Positions 3,726 through 35,866 of a stretch of 44,630 nt of DNA are shown here, one piece after another. The DNA lies in NCBI GenBank assembly GCA_020629005.1, contig JAHDEE010000008.1:25906-70535 (forward strand). The letters are read 5' to 3'. The position numbers and the translations under genes were made by a program. Numbering within the stretch: position 1 is the stretch's first letter; each line of letters begins with the position of its first letter. Source of the DNA: Chitinophagales bacterium (GTDB taxonomy: Bacteria > Bacteroidota > Bacteroidia > Chitinophagales > UBA2359). Under the pieces are notes generated by a model, which was not told where the DNA came from, searched no databases, and saw nothing but the letters and a program-made list of their open reading frames with translations.

Positions 3726-3761
3726 GTTGATGCGAACAAAATTTCTAAAGAATAAATTTCT

Positions 3762-3958
3762 GGAGCGATAAGGCTCTCCTTCGCGTTGACTCCAGTCCCG
3801 TGCTTCGTTCCAATTCAGGGCCCATCTGCCTGCTCCTGCTTGCGCTGTGGCATCTCTCCGGCAAGCTCCGAGCTACCACAGCGCAGCAGTCGCCACGGCA
3901 GCTGCACCCCTCATTTCCTCTTCGCCCGGGGCTATTTTGAAACTTCTGTCCGCCGCAG
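3762..3958. repeat. Dispersed intergenic element, copy A (~197 bp)
   Basis: This noncoding segment between convergent genes shares an ordered set of blocks with 30061-30256: GGAGCGA at the left end, CCCGTG at offset 35, CCCATCTGCCTGCTCCTGC at offset 59 (17 of 19 bases identical to the other copy), GCAGTC-N6-GCAGCTG, CCCGGGGCTATTTTG (identical) and GCCGCAG at the right end. Between the blocks lies a copy-specific hairpin: GCGCTGTGG and CCACAGCGC form a perfect 9-bp stem at 3842-3883. Its GC content is above that of the flanks. The right end abuts the 7-bp tandem repeat. It may be a structured RNA, a degenerate mobile-element relative or a REP-like sequence; I cannot assign a known family. Confidence 0.7.
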
Positions 3959-4028
3959 TACCCTCTACCCTCTACCCTCTACCCTCTACCCTCTACCCTC
4001 TACCCTCTACCCTCTACTCTCTACTCTC
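3959..4028. repeat. 7-bp tandem repeat, ten units
   Basis: Eight perfect copies of TACCCTC are followed by two copies of TACTCTC, 70 bp in all, then degenerate sequence. The array begins at the base after intergenic element A and runs into the 3' end of the minus-strand glycosyltransferase gene, supplying its last four sense codons and its stop. Such a perfect short repeat is likely to vary in copy number by replication slippage. Confidence 0.95.
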
Positions 4029-4979
4029 TACCCACCCAACCCTCTCAGCAACCAGATAGCGATTCTTATCGGGATCCGTGCGGCTAATTAACTCGCCCAG
4101 GAAGCCGGCGAGAAACAACTGAGCTCCAATGACAATGGCAACCAATGCCAGATAAAACAAGGGCTGGTCTGTCACCTCGCGGTAAGGAAGCTCATAGGAT
4201 GTACAATAAATCTTCTGTCCCAACAACCAAATAGTCACGACAAAACCAAGCAGGAAAGCCAGGGAACCAATAGTACCAAAAAAGTGCATCGGTCGCTTGC
4301 CGAACCGACTAATAAACATGATCGATAAAAGATCAAGATATCCGTTGATGAAGCGGTCCCAACCAAATTTGGTTGAACCGTATTTTCTGGATTGATGCTG
4401 TACCACCTTTTCTCCGATGTTTGGAAATCCTGCCCATTTGGCAATCACAGGAATATATCTGTGCATCTCTCCATAGACCTCAATACTTTTCACTACCCGC
4501 TTCCTATAGGCCTTAAGACCGCAATTAAAGTCATTTAACTGGATGCCTGAGGCGAGGCGGGTGGTCGCATTGTAAAACTTTGTGGGTATCGTTTTGGTGA
4601 TAGGATCGTAGCGCTTTTGCTTCCAACCGGAAACGAGATCATAACCATCTTCCATTACCATTCTGTAAAGCTCCGGAATCTCGTCAGGACTATCCTGGAG
4701 GTCGGCATCCATAGTGATAACCACCTCCCCTTGCACCAGCGCAAAGCCCTCGTTCAAGGCCGCGGATTTTCCGTAATTGCGTTGAAACCTGATCGCCTTC
4801 ACAGGATAAGTGCGGGCCAGCTCCTGAATCACCTCCCAGGACCTGTCTTTGCTACCATCGTCAATCATCACGATCTCATAGGATAGATCAGCGGTATGAC
4901 ATACACGATCTATCCAGGACGCTAGTTCAGGTAAGGATTCTTCTTCATCAAGCAATGGTACAACTACCGAGATATTCAT
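4014..4979 (-). CDS. Glycosyltransferase family 2, membrane-anchored (DPM/ArnC-like)
   Basis: A 321-residue GT-A-fold glycosyltransferase resembling polyprenyl-phosphate sugar transferases such as dolichyl-phosphate mannose synthase and ArnC. The nucleotide-sugar site shows IDDGS (39-43) and the metal-binding DADLQD (91-96), and the acceptor region shows the family's NDFNCGLKAY segment. Two C-terminal membrane segments follow (about residues 226-250 and 270-295). It probably loads a sugar onto a lipid carrier at the cytoplasmic face for envelope glycan synthesis; the sugar is unknown. A TTG-initiated extension from 5018 is possible, but the ATG at 4979 gives the standard MNISVVVP start. The normal end ...YLVAERVG is extended by WVESRE, of which ESRE and the stop come from the tandem repeat. 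It is the last gene of a likely operon with the two genes upstream. Confidence 0.9.
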   Translation of the reverse strand: MNISVVVPLLDEEESLPELASWIDRVCHTADLSYEIVMIDDGSKDRSWEVIQELARTYPVKAIRFQRNYGKSAALNEGFALVQGEVVITMDADLQDSPDEIPELYRMVMEDGYDLVSGWKQKRYDPITKTIPTKFYNATTRLASGIQLNDFNCGLKAYRKRVVKSIEVYGEMHRYIPVIAKWAGFPNIGEKVVQHQSRKYGSTKFGWDRFINGYLDLLSIMFISRFGKRPMHFFGTIGSLAFLLGFVVTIWLLGQKIYCTSYELPYREVTDQPLFYLALVAIVIGAQLFLAGFLGELISRTDPDKNRYLVAERVGWVESRE

Positions 4980-14581: not shown

Positions 14582-14744
14582 GGACTGCGAATTAATTACT
14601 GTCCATTTTGACTTGCAAGAAATGCTTTATCCATCGTTATTTTTCTCCACCAGCCAACCAGGATGCTGTCAAAAAATGCCTCGTCTAAATCATTTCCAGC
14701 GGCGTCAAAATCGGACAGTTATTGATTCCCTATCCCTTAATGTT

Positions 14745-15014
14745 GGCGACCGCGGCAGGGATAGAAGCGGAACGAGCCGCCGGGGATAGCGAGTGAGGCA
14801 TGGCGGATGGGGGCTCCGACTTTAGGAGGAGACCACAGCCGACAATTGCCGAACCGCTAGCCACAAGGTGAGTATTAGCGGATAGCCCGGTGACAGCATG
14901 GACTGGCATTGGGCTATGCTTTTTATATAGTGCGCAATCGTTTGCTGCCAGGCCAGGCTGGCAGCCGCCCAAAAAAATAAAAGCCCGAATCAACTATAAG
15001 TCGATTCGGGCTTT
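14745..15014 (+). ncRNA. Candidate structured noncoding RNA element ending in a terminator
   Basis: The gap 14582-15095 lies between convergent genes. From about 14745 it is GC-rich with nested pairings: GCGGC/GCCGC (14752-14756 with 14776-14780), CCGCTA/TAGCGG (14854-14859 with 14876-14881), ATAGCCC/GGGCTAT (14882-14888 with 14911-14917) and a perfect 8-bp hairpin GCTGCCAG/CTGGCAGC (14944-14965), followed by a strong terminator. The segments GGGATAGAAGCGG and GCGGATAGCCCGG resemble a recurring intergenic element I recall from other Bacteroidota, but I cannot name a family. The ends are approximate and the strand is inferred from the terminator. It could equally be a repeat with no RNA product. 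Nothing notable is seen at 14582-14744. Confidence 0.5.
14980..15014. terminator. Bidirectional rho-independent terminator
   Basis: AAAGCCCGAATC (14980-14991) pairs perfectly with GATTCGGGCTTT (15003-15014), and the loop has a further ACT/AGT pairing. A T-rich run follows on the plus strand, and an A run precedes it (a T run on the minus strand). It can therefore serve both plus-strand transcripts and the minus-strand porV gene. Confidence 0.9.
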
Positions 15015-30021: not shown

Positions 30022-30060
30022 TCAAGCTTGAAATCAGTAATCTAAACGGATTCCTTTGTA

Positions 30061-30256
30061 GGAGCGAAGCGCTAGTTCCTCGCGCTAATGGGCTCCCCGT
30101 GTTCCGCTATTATTCACCACCCATCTGCTTGTTCCTGCCGGGCCCCTGCCGTCTCGCTTTGAGAGCGAGCCAGCATGGGCCTGGCAGTCACTGGCGCAGC
30201 TGGGCGGTTCATACCGCTGCACCCGGGGCTATTTTGCTGGCTTTGGTGGGCCGTAG
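30061..30256. repeat. Dispersed intergenic element, copy B (~196 bp)
   Basis: The second copy of the element at 3762-3958, in the same orientation. GGAGCGA is at the left end, CCCGTG at offset 35, CCCATCTGCTTGTTCCTGC at offset 59, GCAGTC-N6-GCAGCTG at 30184-30202, CCCGGGGCTATTTTG at 30222-30236 (identical) and GCCGTAG at the right end. The variable middle has its own hairpin, CTCGCT/AGCGAG nested within CTGCC/GGCAG. It also sits between the 3' ends of convergent genes. The remaining bases of the gap (30022-30060 and 30257-30386) show nothing I can name. Confidence 0.7.
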
Positions 30257-30463: not shown

Positions 30464-33400
30464 TTATCGAACAACTGTAATGTTACCCTTCATCATCACA
30501 TCCTTATCTGTTCCGCAAGCAAAAATGTTGGCCTTGCAGAACCAAACATAAACACCCAATTCAACTGGCTCCCCCTTGAAGGTTCCATCCCATCCCATAG
30601 TCGGATCAGTAGTAGCAAATATCTGCTTGCCCCATCGATCAAAAACAAACATCTCAAAACTCAGGACGTTTTGTGTATTGGTGGCCCGGAAAACATCATT
30701 CATTCCATCCCCATTCGGACTGAAAGCGCTGGGAAACTTGGTAGCAGCCACGTAGGGGAACTCCGCAATTGCACTCACGTGAATCGTAGAATCGCATCCG
30801 GAGGCAGTTGAAAGATAGAAGGTGTGCTCCTCATCAGCAGGGATGCTTTGACCTAGAAATAGAAGCTTATCCGTGCCACAAATGATACTGTCGATCTCGG
30901 TGTAATAAGTTGGCCTTGGATCTACATGTATGGTCACTATGGAATCACAGCCTTCAGAATTGGAGTAGTAGAAATCCTGGGATTCACCAGCTGGAATATC
31001 AACATTTTCAAAATTGAAGTAATCCTCTTCGCAGGCTTCCTCAGTCAGTTCCAGATAACTTCTGGAGATGGAACTTACATGCACCGTCACGATGGAATCA
31101 CAATTGTTCACCGTCGGATAATGGAAGTCAGTACTGCTGCCAATGGGAAGCAGATTGCCATCAAAGGCAGCGCTCATTCCCTCACATGCCTCTAGCTCCA
31201 AATCCGAAGCATAAACCGGATAGGGCAACACCGTCACCTGCACAATAGAATCGCAATCACTGATGCTAAGGTAGGGGAAGTCAGTTGTCGTACCTTCCTG
31301 GATTTCTTGTCCATCAAATTCAGCATACTCTTGAGGGCAGGCATATAGTTCCACCGTCTGGAAATAATTGTCTACACCCGAAACAGAAACAGTAACTATA
31401 GAATCACAGTTATTAGTCGTTTGGTAATTAAACTCTGTTGTAGAACCGATTGCAAGATCTGCTCCGTCAAATGAAGCTGTAGTGCCGTCACAGGCAATCA
31501 AATCCACATCATAAGCATACACTGGCCAGGGTAAAACTTCTATAGTAACAATAGAATCGCAACCTGACTCTGCTGTAAGGGTAAAATCGGTGAAAGACCC
31601 AATTGCCAGACTCTCTCCCTCAAAGATCGCCTCAGTATACTCGCAGGTATGAAGTTGCGCCTCATTGTACACAGTCGAAATCTCTAATACCTCCATAGTT
31701 ACGATAGAGTCACAACCACTGCTTGCCTGGAATGTGAAATCTGTAAAGCTCCCAATGGCCAGGTTCTGCCCCTGAAATTGCGCTTCCGTGCCTTCGCAGG
31801 CATCAATTTGCGCCTGCTCGTAGACAGTCGGCACTTCGGTAATGTTCACCGTAAGTGTTGAGTCGCATCCTACAGAAGAGGTGTAGAAAAACTCCGTACT
31901 GGAACCGATCAATAACTCTTCTCCCTCAAAGAGAGCAGTACTGCCTTCACAAGTTGGTATTTCATAAGTGCCAAAGCTTGGAGCCAATGCTTCGATGCTT
32001 ACGGTAATTAACGAATCGCATCCATTGATGCTGGTGTAAGAGACCAGTTGAGTGCTACCTGCAGGAATTTCGAGATCATTGTATTGATAGTTGCTTCCTT
32101 CACAAGCCTGATAACTTTGTTCTGCCTCGTATTCTTCGTAGGCATCTACAAGTAGATGTATAAGACTGTCACAGCCTGCCACACTCAGGTATGGAACGAC
32201 CAGATCAGTACCGGGACCATATTGCTGGCCATCAAATTCGGTAGTTGTTTCTGGACAGGTATAGAGCTGTACTTCTTCCTCGTAGATGCTTCTCAGGGCC
32301 GCATTAATAGTAACCAAAGAATCGCAGCCACTTTCGCCTGTATAGGCAAATTGCATTGAAGAACCAGCGGGGATTTCTTCACCCTGGAAGATCGTCACTT
32401 CGCCGTCGCAGGTGGGATAATCCACCGTATTGTAGATCACATCTACTCCTTGCACTGAAACATGATAGCTGCTATCACAACTAAAGGAGGTGCTGTACTG
32501 GAAATCAGTTACCGAGCCAATCACCAATTCGGTGTTGTCAAATTCAGCATTAAATCCGGCGCAGGCCTGCAGCACAAGTGTATCTCTATAGATCGGCTTC
32601 TCAATCGCTCGAATGGTAACGATAGAATCGCAACCAGTATAAGAAGCGAATATAAAGTCCTGCTCGTCTCCTGGGTAAAGTGTCACTCCTGAGAAATTGT
32701 AGTAGCTATTTGAGCAAACAGGCACTTCGACCGTGTTGTACACATTCGCAATCTGAGTCACGGTCAAGGGAATATTGGTATCGCAATGCGAATTGGTGAC
32801 ATATAGATCGTGATCGCCTGCCTCATCAACAATGAGTAAAGGTCCGGACGCATTACCATCCCAACTGTAGGTGAGATCAGCGGGTAAGTTGTTCCCAATC
32901 ACCATATTATTTCCTTCGCAGATCACTGCCTCCGGGAGCGAGATTTCTGGTAGACTATAATCGAATACAAGAACCGTGTCAATATCAATGCAATTGCCAT
33001 AGGAGACTTGCACCCAATATGATCCGGCCTGGTCGACTTGTATACTCTGTTCTGTGGAGCCAGTAGACCATAGATAGGAGGCATTTGGTGTAGTTGCAGA
33101 AAGAACAGCATCAGGCTGGGTACAAAACTGAAGATCTGCGCCAAGGTCTGTTTCGACAGAAATTTCATCGACATAGAAGTAGTCTCTTCGATCACAAAAA
33201 TCTTCTACGATATCTACATAGTAAGTGCCCGGTTCACTGACGTCAATAAAGGAATCTGTGGAACCTGTACTCCAATCATAAGTAGCATTGTTTAGATCCA
33301 TTTCAATCCGCAGTGTTTCACCTGCGCAGTATGCTGTATCTGTTGCATAGCCCTCCGTCGATACATTAAGCCAGTATCCAACTGTATCCGCCAGAAGGCA

Positions 33401-35866
33401 GGAGTAGGGATTTTTGGCTACCATGTAAACATAGTAATCTCCGGGTTCATAGTATGTGTGCGTAGGTCCCACTTCCGTAGAGTTTTGACCATCTCCGAAA
33501 TCCCAATAGTAACCAGTGGCACCGGTGGAATAATTTTGGCCGGTAATGGTAAACGGGGCGCAGCCTTGCAATCCGGGATCAATTTCCATGTCTGCCATCA
33601 AGGAACTAACTTCAAAATCGATCTTGAAAACGCCACCATCCCAATTGGTTGACTGATAGGTAGACCAGGCATTGGGCAAGGTCTGTAAGGGCGAGCCATT
33701 CATACCACTGCAAACAGCCTGATATACGATCCCTTCCGGATTAAATCGACTGGTTCCTCCGTCAACATGCTCGCTCCAACCATAGTAGGTGCCGAATTCT
33801 AAATCCATTGCATATGGAGTCAGCACACCAAGATAGAAGGTGGTAGGCTGCCCAACAGGGAAGCTGCTGTAGTAGGCATCGGGGGATGTAGGCATTCCGG
33901 CTGCCACCTGGAAAGCTGAATAATAAATGTAGTTACAGCGATCTACCATAAATGCTACCGGAGCAAAATCCTGTGTTACAGTGGCCACACCGATATTGGT
34001 TGAGTAGACCAGCTCGTTTAGATTTTTGTCAAAGGCAGCCACAAAGGCACAGGCATCAGGATTAACCACATAGGTGCTGTCCGTGACAGGCATCGGATTA
34101 GATGATTTGCCGATCACATGCAGGTTTTCAAATTCGTCAAGGTCGCAGAGAAAGAGCTGATCGCTTCCGTTGCCACCGTAGAAAGTACTTGCCGTCAGGG
34201 TGTTACCACCTGGGGAGAATTTCACAGCAAATCCATCTGAAATACTACCACCAAAGCCGGTTTGATAACCACCAGAAACTGTTGGGAAATTGCTGCCACC
34301 GGCAACTCCAACCACAAAGAGGCTACCATCCTCTGTCTTTCTGAGTCCTAGCGCTCTATCAGGTCCGTTTTCGCCCAGATAGGAACTCCAGATCAACTGG
34401 CTACAATCGCTGTTAAGCTGAAATACAACCGCATCCTGTGCGGCCCCGGGACCTGTTGGATTAAAGTTGGTGTCAAATGCTCCAGGTGTGACCGGGAAGT
34501 TTGAAGAAGCGCTCAGGGAGGCAACATAGCAGCCCCCGCTCCCATTCAGAATGATTTCAGAGCGAAATTCGTCCGCATTCACGTACTCTTCTACACTAAC
34601 ATTGTTTCCGTCGTCATTGCTTCCGCCAATATAAGTGCTACCCAATAATTGAGTTCCTGTGCTGTTCACCTTTGTGACAACCAGGTCGTAGCCTCCTTGA
34701 TGCGAACCTTGCACAGCATTTGCAGTCACTGGGTAGTTATTGGACCTGGTGGTTCCCACAATGTACAGGTTGAAGGCTTCATCGCAGATCAAACTCATAG
34801 GGTATTCCTCCGCTCCTCCACCAATATAGGTAGCGTAGATCAACTGGCTTCCGGTAGGATTGTATTTGCTGATACCAATATCAACGGCATCCGGATAAGT
34901 GCCGGCAAAGTCAATTTGAAATGCACCTGCAGTAACTGGATATCCTGTTCCGAAGGATCGGTTTCCCGAGTAGATATTTCCGTCGTCATCGAAAGTAGCA
35001 CTGTGTCCATAATCCATATTACCAGAGGTGCCGCTAAGTGTAGCGGCCATGAGTACTGGATCAATAACCAGTTCTTTTGTGCTATCGTAACCTTCCGGAA
35101 AGGTAAAGCTCAGTCTGTTTCCTTTCAAAACATAATTGCAGGGAATCTGAATCTGTTTCCCGTCAACCCATTGGTAGGCAAAAGGCTTCAGCTCCTTCAT
35201 CTGTCCTACCGTGGTCTCGATAACGAGGTCACCGTTCTCCAGGGCCAAAGATTCAGCACCCAGATACTCCACCTCAATGAGATTGGGATCAGCTTTTGGA
35301 CAAACAAGAAAGTCGTACTTAAAATTTCCATCCTTGGTGTATATCAAGGCATCTATGCCTGGGTATACATCGTCATAACTTACAGCGTCGAAAAGTGCTA
35401 CTTCCGGGGCCCATTTTTTGGGGTCATTTCCCAGGAAATAATTGTGGTAAGCGACTTGCTTTTCCAAACCCTTCGGAGAGCTGTTTTGTCCTCCTACAAA
35501 GTTGACCTTATAGGCATGGCCCCTAAGTCTGAGTGGCTCTGCCGAAGCTTTGTGGAAATGACTGTGTTCATGTACTTCGTGTAGATCATCCGGGTGCAGC
35601 AGACTTACCGTGAATCCTACCTCTTCAAGGAACAGGGTGTTGTCTCCCTGAAGAGGTAGTTTGTAAGCAACGTTTTCGTGCCACTGACCTTTGTTCTCAA
35701 TAAACGATAGTGTGTTTTGCTCCTTCGCAGCAGGCGCGTGCTGATGATGATGTGATGCATGGTCATCGGCCATAGCATCAGTTGCGAGCAGAGAAATCCC
35801 TGCAAGCAGGACCATCAGGATGAGGTGTAGATACACCTTCCTCAGGTCCCCCAAATTTTGCGACAT
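30464..35866 (-). CDS. Giant secreted protein with SBBP-type, PKD and 13 Cys repeats and T9SS type B sorting domain
   Basis: An 1800-residue exported protein. A signal peptide is followed by a His-rich stretch (HASHHHQHAP). Residues about 50-270 match the conserved domain starting FIENKGQWHENVAY that often precedes beta-propeller repeats. Residues about 275-740 hold SBBP-type repeats (YATYIGGGAEE, GSTYIGGSNDD). A PKD domain at about 755-825 has YYWDFGDGQNST. Ig-like modules with WSTGST follow at 850-1000. Thirteen tandem ~51-residue repeats with two Cys each span about 1043-1703. The last ~95 residues (FPSAFSPNGDGMNDVF, FDRWGKQIF, GVYVW) are a type B T9SS/gliding-associated sorting domain. 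It is probably a surface adhesin or extracellular fibre-like protein; no enzymatic motif is seen. Gene order and a dedicated terminator suggest a single-gene transcript. Confidence 0.9.
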   Translation of the reverse strand: MSQNLGDLRKVYLHLILMVLLAGISLLATDAMADDHASHHHQHAPAAKEQNTLSFIENKGQWHENVAYKLPLQGDNTLFLEEVGFTVSLLHPDDLHEVHEHSHFHKASAEPLRLRGHAYKVNFVGGQNSSPKGLEKQVAYHNYFLGNDPKKWAPEVALFDAVSYDDVYPGIDALIYTKDGNFKYDFLVCPKADPNLIEVEYLGAESLALENGDLVIETTVGQMKELKPFAYQWVDGKQIQIPCNYVLKGNRLSFTFPEGYDSTKELVIDPVLMAATLSGTSGNMDYGHSATFDDDGNIYSGNRSFGTGYPVTAGAFQIDFAGTYPDAVDIGISKYNPTGSQLIYATYIGGGAEEYPMSLICDEAFNLYIVGTTRSNNYPVTANAVQGSHQGGYDLVVTKVNSTGTQLLGSTYIGGSNDDGNNVSVEEYVNADEFRSEIILNGSGGCYVASLSASSNFPVTPGAFDTNFNPTGPGAAQDAVVFQLNSDCSQLIWSSYLGENGPDRALGLRKTEDGSLFVVGVAGGSNFPTVSGGYQTGFGGSISDGFAVKFSPGGNTLTASTFYGGNGSDQLFLCDLDEFENLHVIGKSSNPMPVTDSTYVVNPDACAFVAAFDKNLNELVYSTNIGVATVTQDFAPVAFMVDRCNYIYYSAFQVAAGMPTSPDAYYSSFPVGQPTTFYLGVLTPYAMDLEFGTYYGWSEHVDGGTSRFNPEGIVYQAVCSGMNGSPLQTLPNAWSTYQSTNWDGGVFKIDFEVSSLMADMEIDPGLQGCAPFTITGQNYSTGATGYYWDFGDGQNSTEVGPTHTYYEPGDYYVYMVAKNPYSCLLADTVGYWLNVSTEGYATDTAYCAGETLRIEMDLNNATYDWSTGSTDSFIDVSEPGTYYVDIVEDFCDRRDYFYVDEISVETDLGADLQFCTQPDAVLSATTPNASYLWSTGSTEQSIQVDQAGSYWVQVSYGNCIDIDTVLVFDYSLPEISLPEAVICEGNNMVIGNNLPADLTYSWDGNASGPLLIVDEAGDHDLYVTNSHCDTNIPLTVTQIANVYNTVEVPVCSNSYYNFSGVTLYPGDEQDFIFASYTGCDSIVTIRAIEKPIYRDTLVLQACAGFNAEFDNTELVIGSVTDFQYSTSFSCDSSYHVSVQGVDVIYNTVDYPTCDGEVTIFQGEEIPAGSSMQFAYTGESGCDSLVTINAALRSIYEEEVQLYTCPETTTEFDGQQYGPGTDLVVPYLSVAGCDSLIHLLVDAYEEYEAEQSYQACEGSNYQYNDLEIPAGSTQLVSYTSINGCDSLITVSIEALAPSFGTYEIPTCEGSTALFEGEELLIGSSTEFFYTSSVGCDSTLTVNITEVPTVYEQAQIDACEGTEAQFQGQNLAIGSFTDFTFQASSGCDSIVTMEVLEISTVYNEAQLHTCEYTEAIFEGESLAIGSFTDFTLTAESGCDSIVTIEVLPWPVYAYDVDLIACDGTTASFDGADLAIGSTTEFNYQTTNNCDSIVTVSVSGVDNYFQTVELYACPQEYAEFDGQEIQEGTTTDFPYLSISDCDSIVQVTVLPYPVYASDLELEACEGMSAAFDGNLLPIGSSTDFHYPTVNNCDSIVTVHVSSISRSYLELTEEACEEDYFNFENVDIPAGESQDFYYSNSEGCDSIVTIHVDPRPTYYTEIDSIICGTDKLLFLGQSIPADEEHTFYLSTASGCDSTIHVSAIAEFPYVAATKFPSAFSPNGDGMNDVFRATNTQNVLSFEMFVFDRWGKQIFATTDPTMGWDGTFKGEPVELGVYVWFCKANIFACGTDKDVMMKGNITVVR
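30755..32738 (-). repeat. Coding repeat region: 13 tandem units of ~51 codons
   Basis: The units diverge in sequence but keep the pattern C-x(5-6)-F-x-G near the start, a G-[ST]-x-[TQ]-[DE]-F segment in the middle and [GN]-C-D-S-[IL]-V-T near the end. The first Cys and the Cys of CDS are about 28 residues apart, and the period is about 51 residues. One disulfide per unit is plausible. The most similar neighbours are units 7 and 8 (both with LAIGSFTDF), consistent with local duplication. Confidence 0.85.

Follow-up and report, generated by a model that had tools for sequence, protein, structure and literature searches.

Flavo-1-like intergenic repeats folded on one strand in a Chitinophagales genome and its relatives

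Introduction

Two noncoding regions of ~197 bp lie 26 kb apart in a 44,630-nt stretch of DNA (hereafter the window, i.e. the whole stretch that was analysed) from the genome of a Chitinophagales bacterium (hereafter the home genome). They share blocks of sequence at constant spacing, while the stems between the blocks have changed. The original prediction read this as selection on structure, as in an RNA or a protein-binding array, rather than as a recently copied transposon. The locus therefore raises the question of what kind of element the two regions represent, i.e. which strand folds, whether the host maintains each copy and whether the copies move.

Copies in the window and family size

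Direct reading confirms the two copies and their equal block offsets: CCCGTG occurs at 3797 in copy 1 and at 30096 in copy 2 (offset 35 from 3762 and 30061, respectively), CCCATCTGC at 3821 and 30120 (offset 59 in both), and the identical 15-base block CCCGGGGCTATTTTG at 3925–3939 and 30222–30236. Both are type-A elements on the minus strand. Copy 1 spans 3759–3958 (model match 3759–3943; 158.6 bits, E = 1.9e-34) and copy 2 spans 30058–30256 (model match 30058–30240; 155.3 bits, E = 1.1e-33), these matches being by construction because both copies are among the 71 from which the covariance model (hereafter R1) was built. The T-tract at 3759 marks the RNA-sense 3' end of copy 1, whose right end, with weaker conservation, extends to ~3958. 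The pair is real but not the whole set, because the window holds a third copy and the genome hundreds. The third copy, overlooked in the original prediction and absent from the R1 training set, is a type-C element at 14752–14970 with its RNA sense on the plus strand (R1 match 14764–14882 on the minus strand, 55.6 bits, E = 1.8e-10). By direct reading, its GCGGC at 14752–14756 is able to pair with GCCGC at 14964–14968 as a closing helix (P0), and an A-run comes next. All three copies sit between convergent genes, as judged from the window ORFs.

In the 6.89-Mb home genome, CCCGGGGCTATTTTG has 339 matches with up to two mismatches and its reversed control only 3, so the matches are not due to chance. 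The spacing is constrained, as had been proposed: CCCGTGCT (up to one mismatch) lies 123–128 nt upstream in 71 of the 80 15-mer matches of a first sample. Across 1.45 Mb of the home genome, R1 recovers 122 copies; densities from such regions are upper estimates, because the regions were picked around known copies. Together with 215 one-mismatch matches to the 15-mer and 196 exact occurrences of the other subfamilies' box (control 17), this gives an estimate of roughly 400–600 copies in the home genome.

The elements are thus a family of ~185–225-nt dispersed intergenic repeats in which one fixed strand is folded. Within the home-genome sample, the closest type-A pair is 90% identical, the median nearest neighbour is 78% identical and near-identical type-A copies are absent. 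Most copies carry the 15-base box without a mismatch, stems differ by more than 20%, and few truncated or decayed copies were seen. Rare truncation and near-invariant boxes in the presence of diverging stems suggest selection on each copy, which argues against mobility. MITE- and BOX-type repeats are likewise dispersed, modular, intergenic and non-coding, but copies of ordinary MITEs are near-identical, whereas the stems described here diverge by more than 20% and still pair.

Fold, covariation and strand

RNAalifold predicts 35 pairs from the 71-copy alignment, with two-sided compensatory changes in 29 of them. Pairing holds in 94.5% of cells, compared with 72.3% after shuffling and 31–46% when partners are slid by 1–3 columns. 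The covariation score is 0.559 against 0.166 for shuffled alignments (0 of 500 shuffles), in counts whose cells are related by descent, and individual copies fold 4.3–7.8 standard deviations above shuffles. The covariance-model check suggested with the original prediction therefore yields covarying stems and a genome-wide family, and the proposed selection on structure is strongly supported. Stems do vary from copy to copy, as had been noted, but the hairpins are not copy-specific noise: they are family-wide covarying stems, and they form on the minus strand. Of the suggested protein-binding array there is no sign, the fold being continuous rather than an array of sites.

Three parts make up the fold: the closing helix P1, an internal-loop core that is conserved, and a long arm, in which the stems change in pairs. 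In copy 1, the near-invariant box (RNA-sense CAAAATAGCCCCGGG, 3925–3939, minus strand) comprises the P1 5' arm plus AGC. The P1 3' arm, with the RNA-sense CACGGG box (3797–3803, minus strand), pairs with CCCGGGGC (alignment columns 39–45 × 173–179, 99.5% of cells paired). The variable long arm (3817–3915, minus strand) contains helices 2–4, a tandem G.A internal loop (RNA-sense GUGA/GAAC type) and an apical GGCUC..GAGAC hairpin. At the RNA-sense 3' terminus (3756–3767, minus strand), UCGCUCC precedes an A-rich run, which appears on the plus strand as a T-rich run before GGAGCGA. At this end AGC is invariant in the 71 copies, and the T fraction across the final bases before GGAG is 0.57–0.94.

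Mismatches identify the folded strand. Read as plus strand, the fold shows more A.C mismatches than G.U (58:13 in 71 copies, 105:19 in 122 copies and 42:2 in 32 copies from a second genome) and more C.U than G.A (49:3, 90:0 and 27:1, respectively); the 71- and 122-copy alignments overlap, and the independent confirmation comes from the second genome. Helices tolerate G.U and G.A. Because plus-strand A.C and C.U read as G.U and G.A on the minus strand, the minus strand is the structured one. Also, the internal loop beside the inner helix reads GUGA/GAAC on the minus strand, and only this strand gives a tandem G.A. The plus-strand RNA drawn originally is ruled out by the wobble asymmetry and the loop chemistry. 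The G.U share of minus-strand helix pairs is ~2.4–4%, compared with 8.3% in 12 tRNAs, and because it lies below the tRNA value, the folded molecule could equally be single-stranded DNA or RNA.

These properties bear on the main rival to mobility, i.e. a structured RNA maintained by the host. Such an RNA would be a minus-strand transcript (a small RNA or the 3' end of a neighbouring mRNA) that acts by its fold, for example by protecting or ending transcripts between convergent genes. Conservation of pairs in each copy and a strand-specific wobble are what it would lead one to expect, while the low G.U share and an RNA-sense 3' end with an A-run instead of a terminator-like U-run are not. Taking these points with the evidence on context and distribution given below, we regard a host-maintained RNA as rather unlikely.

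Relation to Flavo-1

The original description of Flavo-1 (RF01705) presents the motif as a candidate structured RNA without a cis-regulatory role (Weinberg et al. 2010, PMC2864571), a proposal that counts in favour of a structured RNA here as well. In Flavobacterium psychrophilum, many Flavo-1 matches are not transcribed, and others map in sense or antisense to transcripts (PMC9723704), which counts against it. Within the window, type A and type C have no Flavo-1 match even at E = 10, nothing reaches the gathering level of a known RNA family, and weak miRNA-type matches at a permissive threshold are attributed to chance. Type-B copies of the home genome score 36.8 and 38.9 bits against RF01705 (E = 1.1e-4 and 4.3e-7; gathering cut-off 42). 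The match with E = 4.3e-7 aligns across all 76 model positions on the same strand, and the type-B copy L197 carries 78 inserted nt at a point where the model has 11. R1, a type-A model, finds type B (L197, E = 1.7e-16; L036, E = 3.9e-15) and connects types A, B and C. Homology to Flavo-1 therefore holds through intermediates, from type A to type B by R1 and from type B to RF01705. Because types A and C are unmatched and type B stays below 42 bits, we call the window copies Flavo-1-like rather than members of Flavo-1.

Other genomes show a closer connection. Short copies of many relatives reach the RF01705 cut-off, and three relatives (G004, G017 and G020) have more than 60 Flavo-1 matches each, most of them, among the matches listed, above the cut-off; 14 control genomes have 0 Flavo-1 matches. 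Flavo-1 and the element share the folded strand, the core UAGCCcCGAUnGnAGCGGAAAU...AGCGGAnAGCgGGA, the CCC/GGG helix, Bacteroidota hosts and an unexplained function. They differ in that the Rfam model is 76 nt long with a short loop, whereas the element has a far longer arm and two further conserved loops. Type A also has CCCGGGCG.../GAGCACGGG where Flavo-1 has CCCGAUNG.../GAUAGCGGG, and type C has GGG/CCC in place of CCC/GGG, with an extra second hairpin domain and closing helix.

The element is thus a long, previously undescribed relative of the Flavo-1 motif, and our literature search found no description of it under other names. The original statement that similar sequences occur in Saprospirales agrees with the members in Saprospiraceae and Chitinophagales MAGs; its remark that no function has been described is right, but the family itself was already partly described, through its relation to Flavo-1. 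Flavo-1 has been carried as a structured RNA without a function since 2010. Our results point to Flavo-1 being the short version of a repeat family that is modular, strand-specific, and gained and lost, which would explain why its transcripts are sense, antisense or absent. The question then moves from the regulatory target of an ncRNA to what mobilizes or maintains the element.

Subfamilies

The home genome contains a Flavo-1-like superfamily with at least three subfamilies. In RNA sense, (i) type A reads 5'-...GCAAAAUAGCCCCGGGCGnAGCGGUAUGAG-[arm]-GAAUAAUAGCGGAGCACGGG...UUCGCUCC-A-rich-3'; (ii) type B reads UAGCCCCGAUnGnAGYGG...AGYGGAnAGCGGGA, with a long arm similar to that of type A; and (iii) type C reads GGGAUAGnAGYGG...AGYGGAUAGCCC, with the helix arms exchanged, and has an extra second hairpin domain and the closing helix P0. 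In type-C copies from 53 contigs, the 5-bp P0 occurs in many complementary variants (e.g. GCGTG/CACGC, GCGCA/TGCGC, GCACC/GGTGC and CTGCC/GGCAG); the search accepted any downstream position, so that a few matches are due to chance, and most lie directly after the second hairpin. A type-A P0 is not indicated, end complementarity being no better than in shuffles, and the type-A end classes co-segregate (41 CG/CG, 6 CT/CT and 0 CG/CT).

In G004, the 5' box AGC and a GCU near the 3' end covary, all 70 copies being consistent (59 AGC/GCT, 11 AGA/TCT and 0 mixed). This switch from AGC to AGA and from GCU to UCU may be a single lineage event. Two copies of G017 seem, by reading, to show further matched states (ACG/CGU and ACA/UGU). 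Type A is neutral on this pairing because AGC and GCU are both conserved there.

Type-C domains of one MAG have a median nearest-neighbour identity of 95%, with values up to 100%. The second domain of type C (L237–L289) is a long, near-perfect inverted repeat with a different sequence in nearly every copy, and the domain beside it is up to 100% identical across copies. Such a pattern hints at gene conversion or at insertion into hairpins already present. The arm also appears modular in G004 (L297–L316), where copies with one and the same core differ in having a GCGTTGGCT-type arm or the perfect palindrome TTGTAGAGCAAATTCATGAATTTGCTCTACAA, as if swapped between copies. Composite repeats at L061:9673 (minus strand) and L045:10223 (plus strand) contain two nested inverted repeats, GGACTACGGAG..CTCCGTAGTCC and CTTCAACGG..CCGTTGAAG; of the type-A element they share no more than the final ~18 nt at its right end.

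Genomic context, gain and loss

With genes called by a simple ORF rule, which makes the context counts approximate, one of the 106 home-genome copies with assignable context overlaps an ORF. Convergent genes flank 37 of 105 intergenic copies (35%), compared with 58 of 476 element-free gaps (12%), and divergent genes flank 12 copies, compared with 123 of the 476 gaps. The convergent excess would suit a host-maintained structured RNA; the orientation of the element between genes of the same direction would not, being nearly random (30 '++' and 26 '--').

High copy number and intergenic location near gene 3' ends recall a second kind of host-kept element, i.e. a REP/BIME-like DNA site whose extruded or single-stranded hairpins would bind a nucleoid, topology or repair protein and which would spread by gene conversion. 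REP/BIME sequences associated with RAYT (Y1-family) transposases are likewise present as hundreds of short, folded, apparently non-autonomous intergenic repeats near gene 3' ends. The low G.U share and the near-identical type-C domain 1 beside an unrelated domain 2 are compatible with such a site. However, REPs are palindromes of 20–40 nt, whereas the element is ~200 nt long with elaborate, conserved internal loops and long-range pairing beyond a simple palindrome. We consider a site of this kind improbable.

A recombination site of the integron attC kind, i.e. a folded bottom strand with variable stems recognized by a tyrosine recombinase, would share several formal features with the element: a strand-specific single-strand fold with only one strand relevant, variable stems, conserved boxes and a position after gene 3' ends. 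But the copies are scattered singly among housekeeping genes (e.g. a valyl-tRNA synthetase gene, identified by reading its sequence) outside cassette arrays, and inspection shows their conserved boxes to be different ones, lacking the attC-type GTT core. We therefore rate this explanation as very improbable.

Comparison with a genus-mate (G001, ~70% DNA identity) reveals two orthologous sites filled in both genomes and four filled in only one. At both shared sites, the two elements fall in different genome-specific sequence groups, which could reflect independent insertion or gene conversion and is a further point for a REP/BIME-like site. No target-site duplication was established, the empty sites being too diverged. 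Pairs of copies in opposite orientation, 40–700 bp apart in one gap, occur in G001 (L151, L154 and L157) and in G000 (L051, L055, L061 and L174), and recall BIME pairs.

Distribution among genomes

Exact matches to the box GATNGNAGYGGNA (box 1) were counted in 60 relatives, which, like all genomes compared, are draft assemblies of hundreds of contigs. G004 has 1,756 (control 17), G006 481, G015 430 and G011 310; the remaining relatives have fewer than about 110, mostly ~20, i.e. near the control. Copy number thus ranges from background to ~1,750 per genome inside one family. The type-C pattern matches only MAGs labelled Bacteroidetes, Chitinophagales, Saprospiraceae or Flavobacteriales. Plasmids give no match to a type-A query. 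Among 2.9 million viral contigs, the type-A box is found in 0 and the Flavo-1 box in 7, so carriage by phages is not typical.

Copies are gained or lost between related genomes. Volatile copy number and changing sites speak against a host-maintained structured RNA, and rarity or absence in many genomes of the same family speaks against a REP/BIME-like site. The original preference for structure 'rather than' a transposon is not supported, because a relative lacks copies at corresponding sites and genera of one family differ explosively in copy number.

Possible mobilization

Orientation-blind placement, lineage-specific amplification and presence or absence at individual sites lead us to read the elements as mobile and non-autonomous, with a folded single strand (RNA or single-stranded DNA) that would be seen by a trans-acting enzyme, a reading to which we give about an even chance. 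The near-identity of type C in one MAG and the sites filled in one genome only also favour mobility. The mechanism would involve (i) a single-stranded intermediate, either a transcript or single-stranded DNA; (ii) an enzyme acting in trans that recognizes the fold, probably through the core, the closing helices and the 3' tail; and (iii) insertion or retention favoured in intergenic DNA just beyond gene 3' ends, where it might do least harm. The arm may need merely to be a hairpin, which would explain both the drift of its sequence and the swapping of whole arm modules.

Searches for known enzymes were negative in the genomes covered, within limits set by genome incompleteness, which are least for G006 (98% complete). 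Neither the home genome (96.7% complete) nor G006 (~480 copies) gives an RVT_1 match, so that mobilization by a canonical reverse transcriptase is unsupported, although a past or strongly diverged enzyme could still have acted. Y1_Tnp has 0 matches in G001, G006 (~480 box-1 copies), G011 and G017, and mobilization by RAYT/Y1 is likewise unsupported. In the 1.7 Mb examined, we found no transposase family of matching copy number and no autonomous partner. Tentatively, the elements might represent a new class of mobile element, spreading in the form of a folded single-stranded nucleic acid with no canonical reverse transcriptase or Y1 transposase, that reaches ~1 copy per 3.6 kb in some Bacteroidota and includes the Flavo-1 'ncRNAs' as short members. 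If no known mobilizing enzyme takes part, the mechanism of mobility is still to be found.

Other repeats near the elements

A heptamer tandem repeat, (TACCCTC)n at window positions 3959–4035, adjoins the right end of copy 1, and different short tandem repeats follow other copies (GGGTTTT at L022, GGGATCT at L024 and TACTCTC at L018). Another dispersed repeat, MITE-like in appearance and bounded by inverted ends (AATTAATTACTGTCCATTTTGACTTGC ... GACAGTTATTGATTCCCTATCCCTTA), adjoins the third copy at 14590–14740 and also occurs in the flanks at L003, L014, L053, L066, L161 and L180. Finally, the 153-bp periodic repeats at 30774–32635 lie within an 1800-aa ORF (30464–35866, minus strand) and correspond to 51-aa protein repeats.
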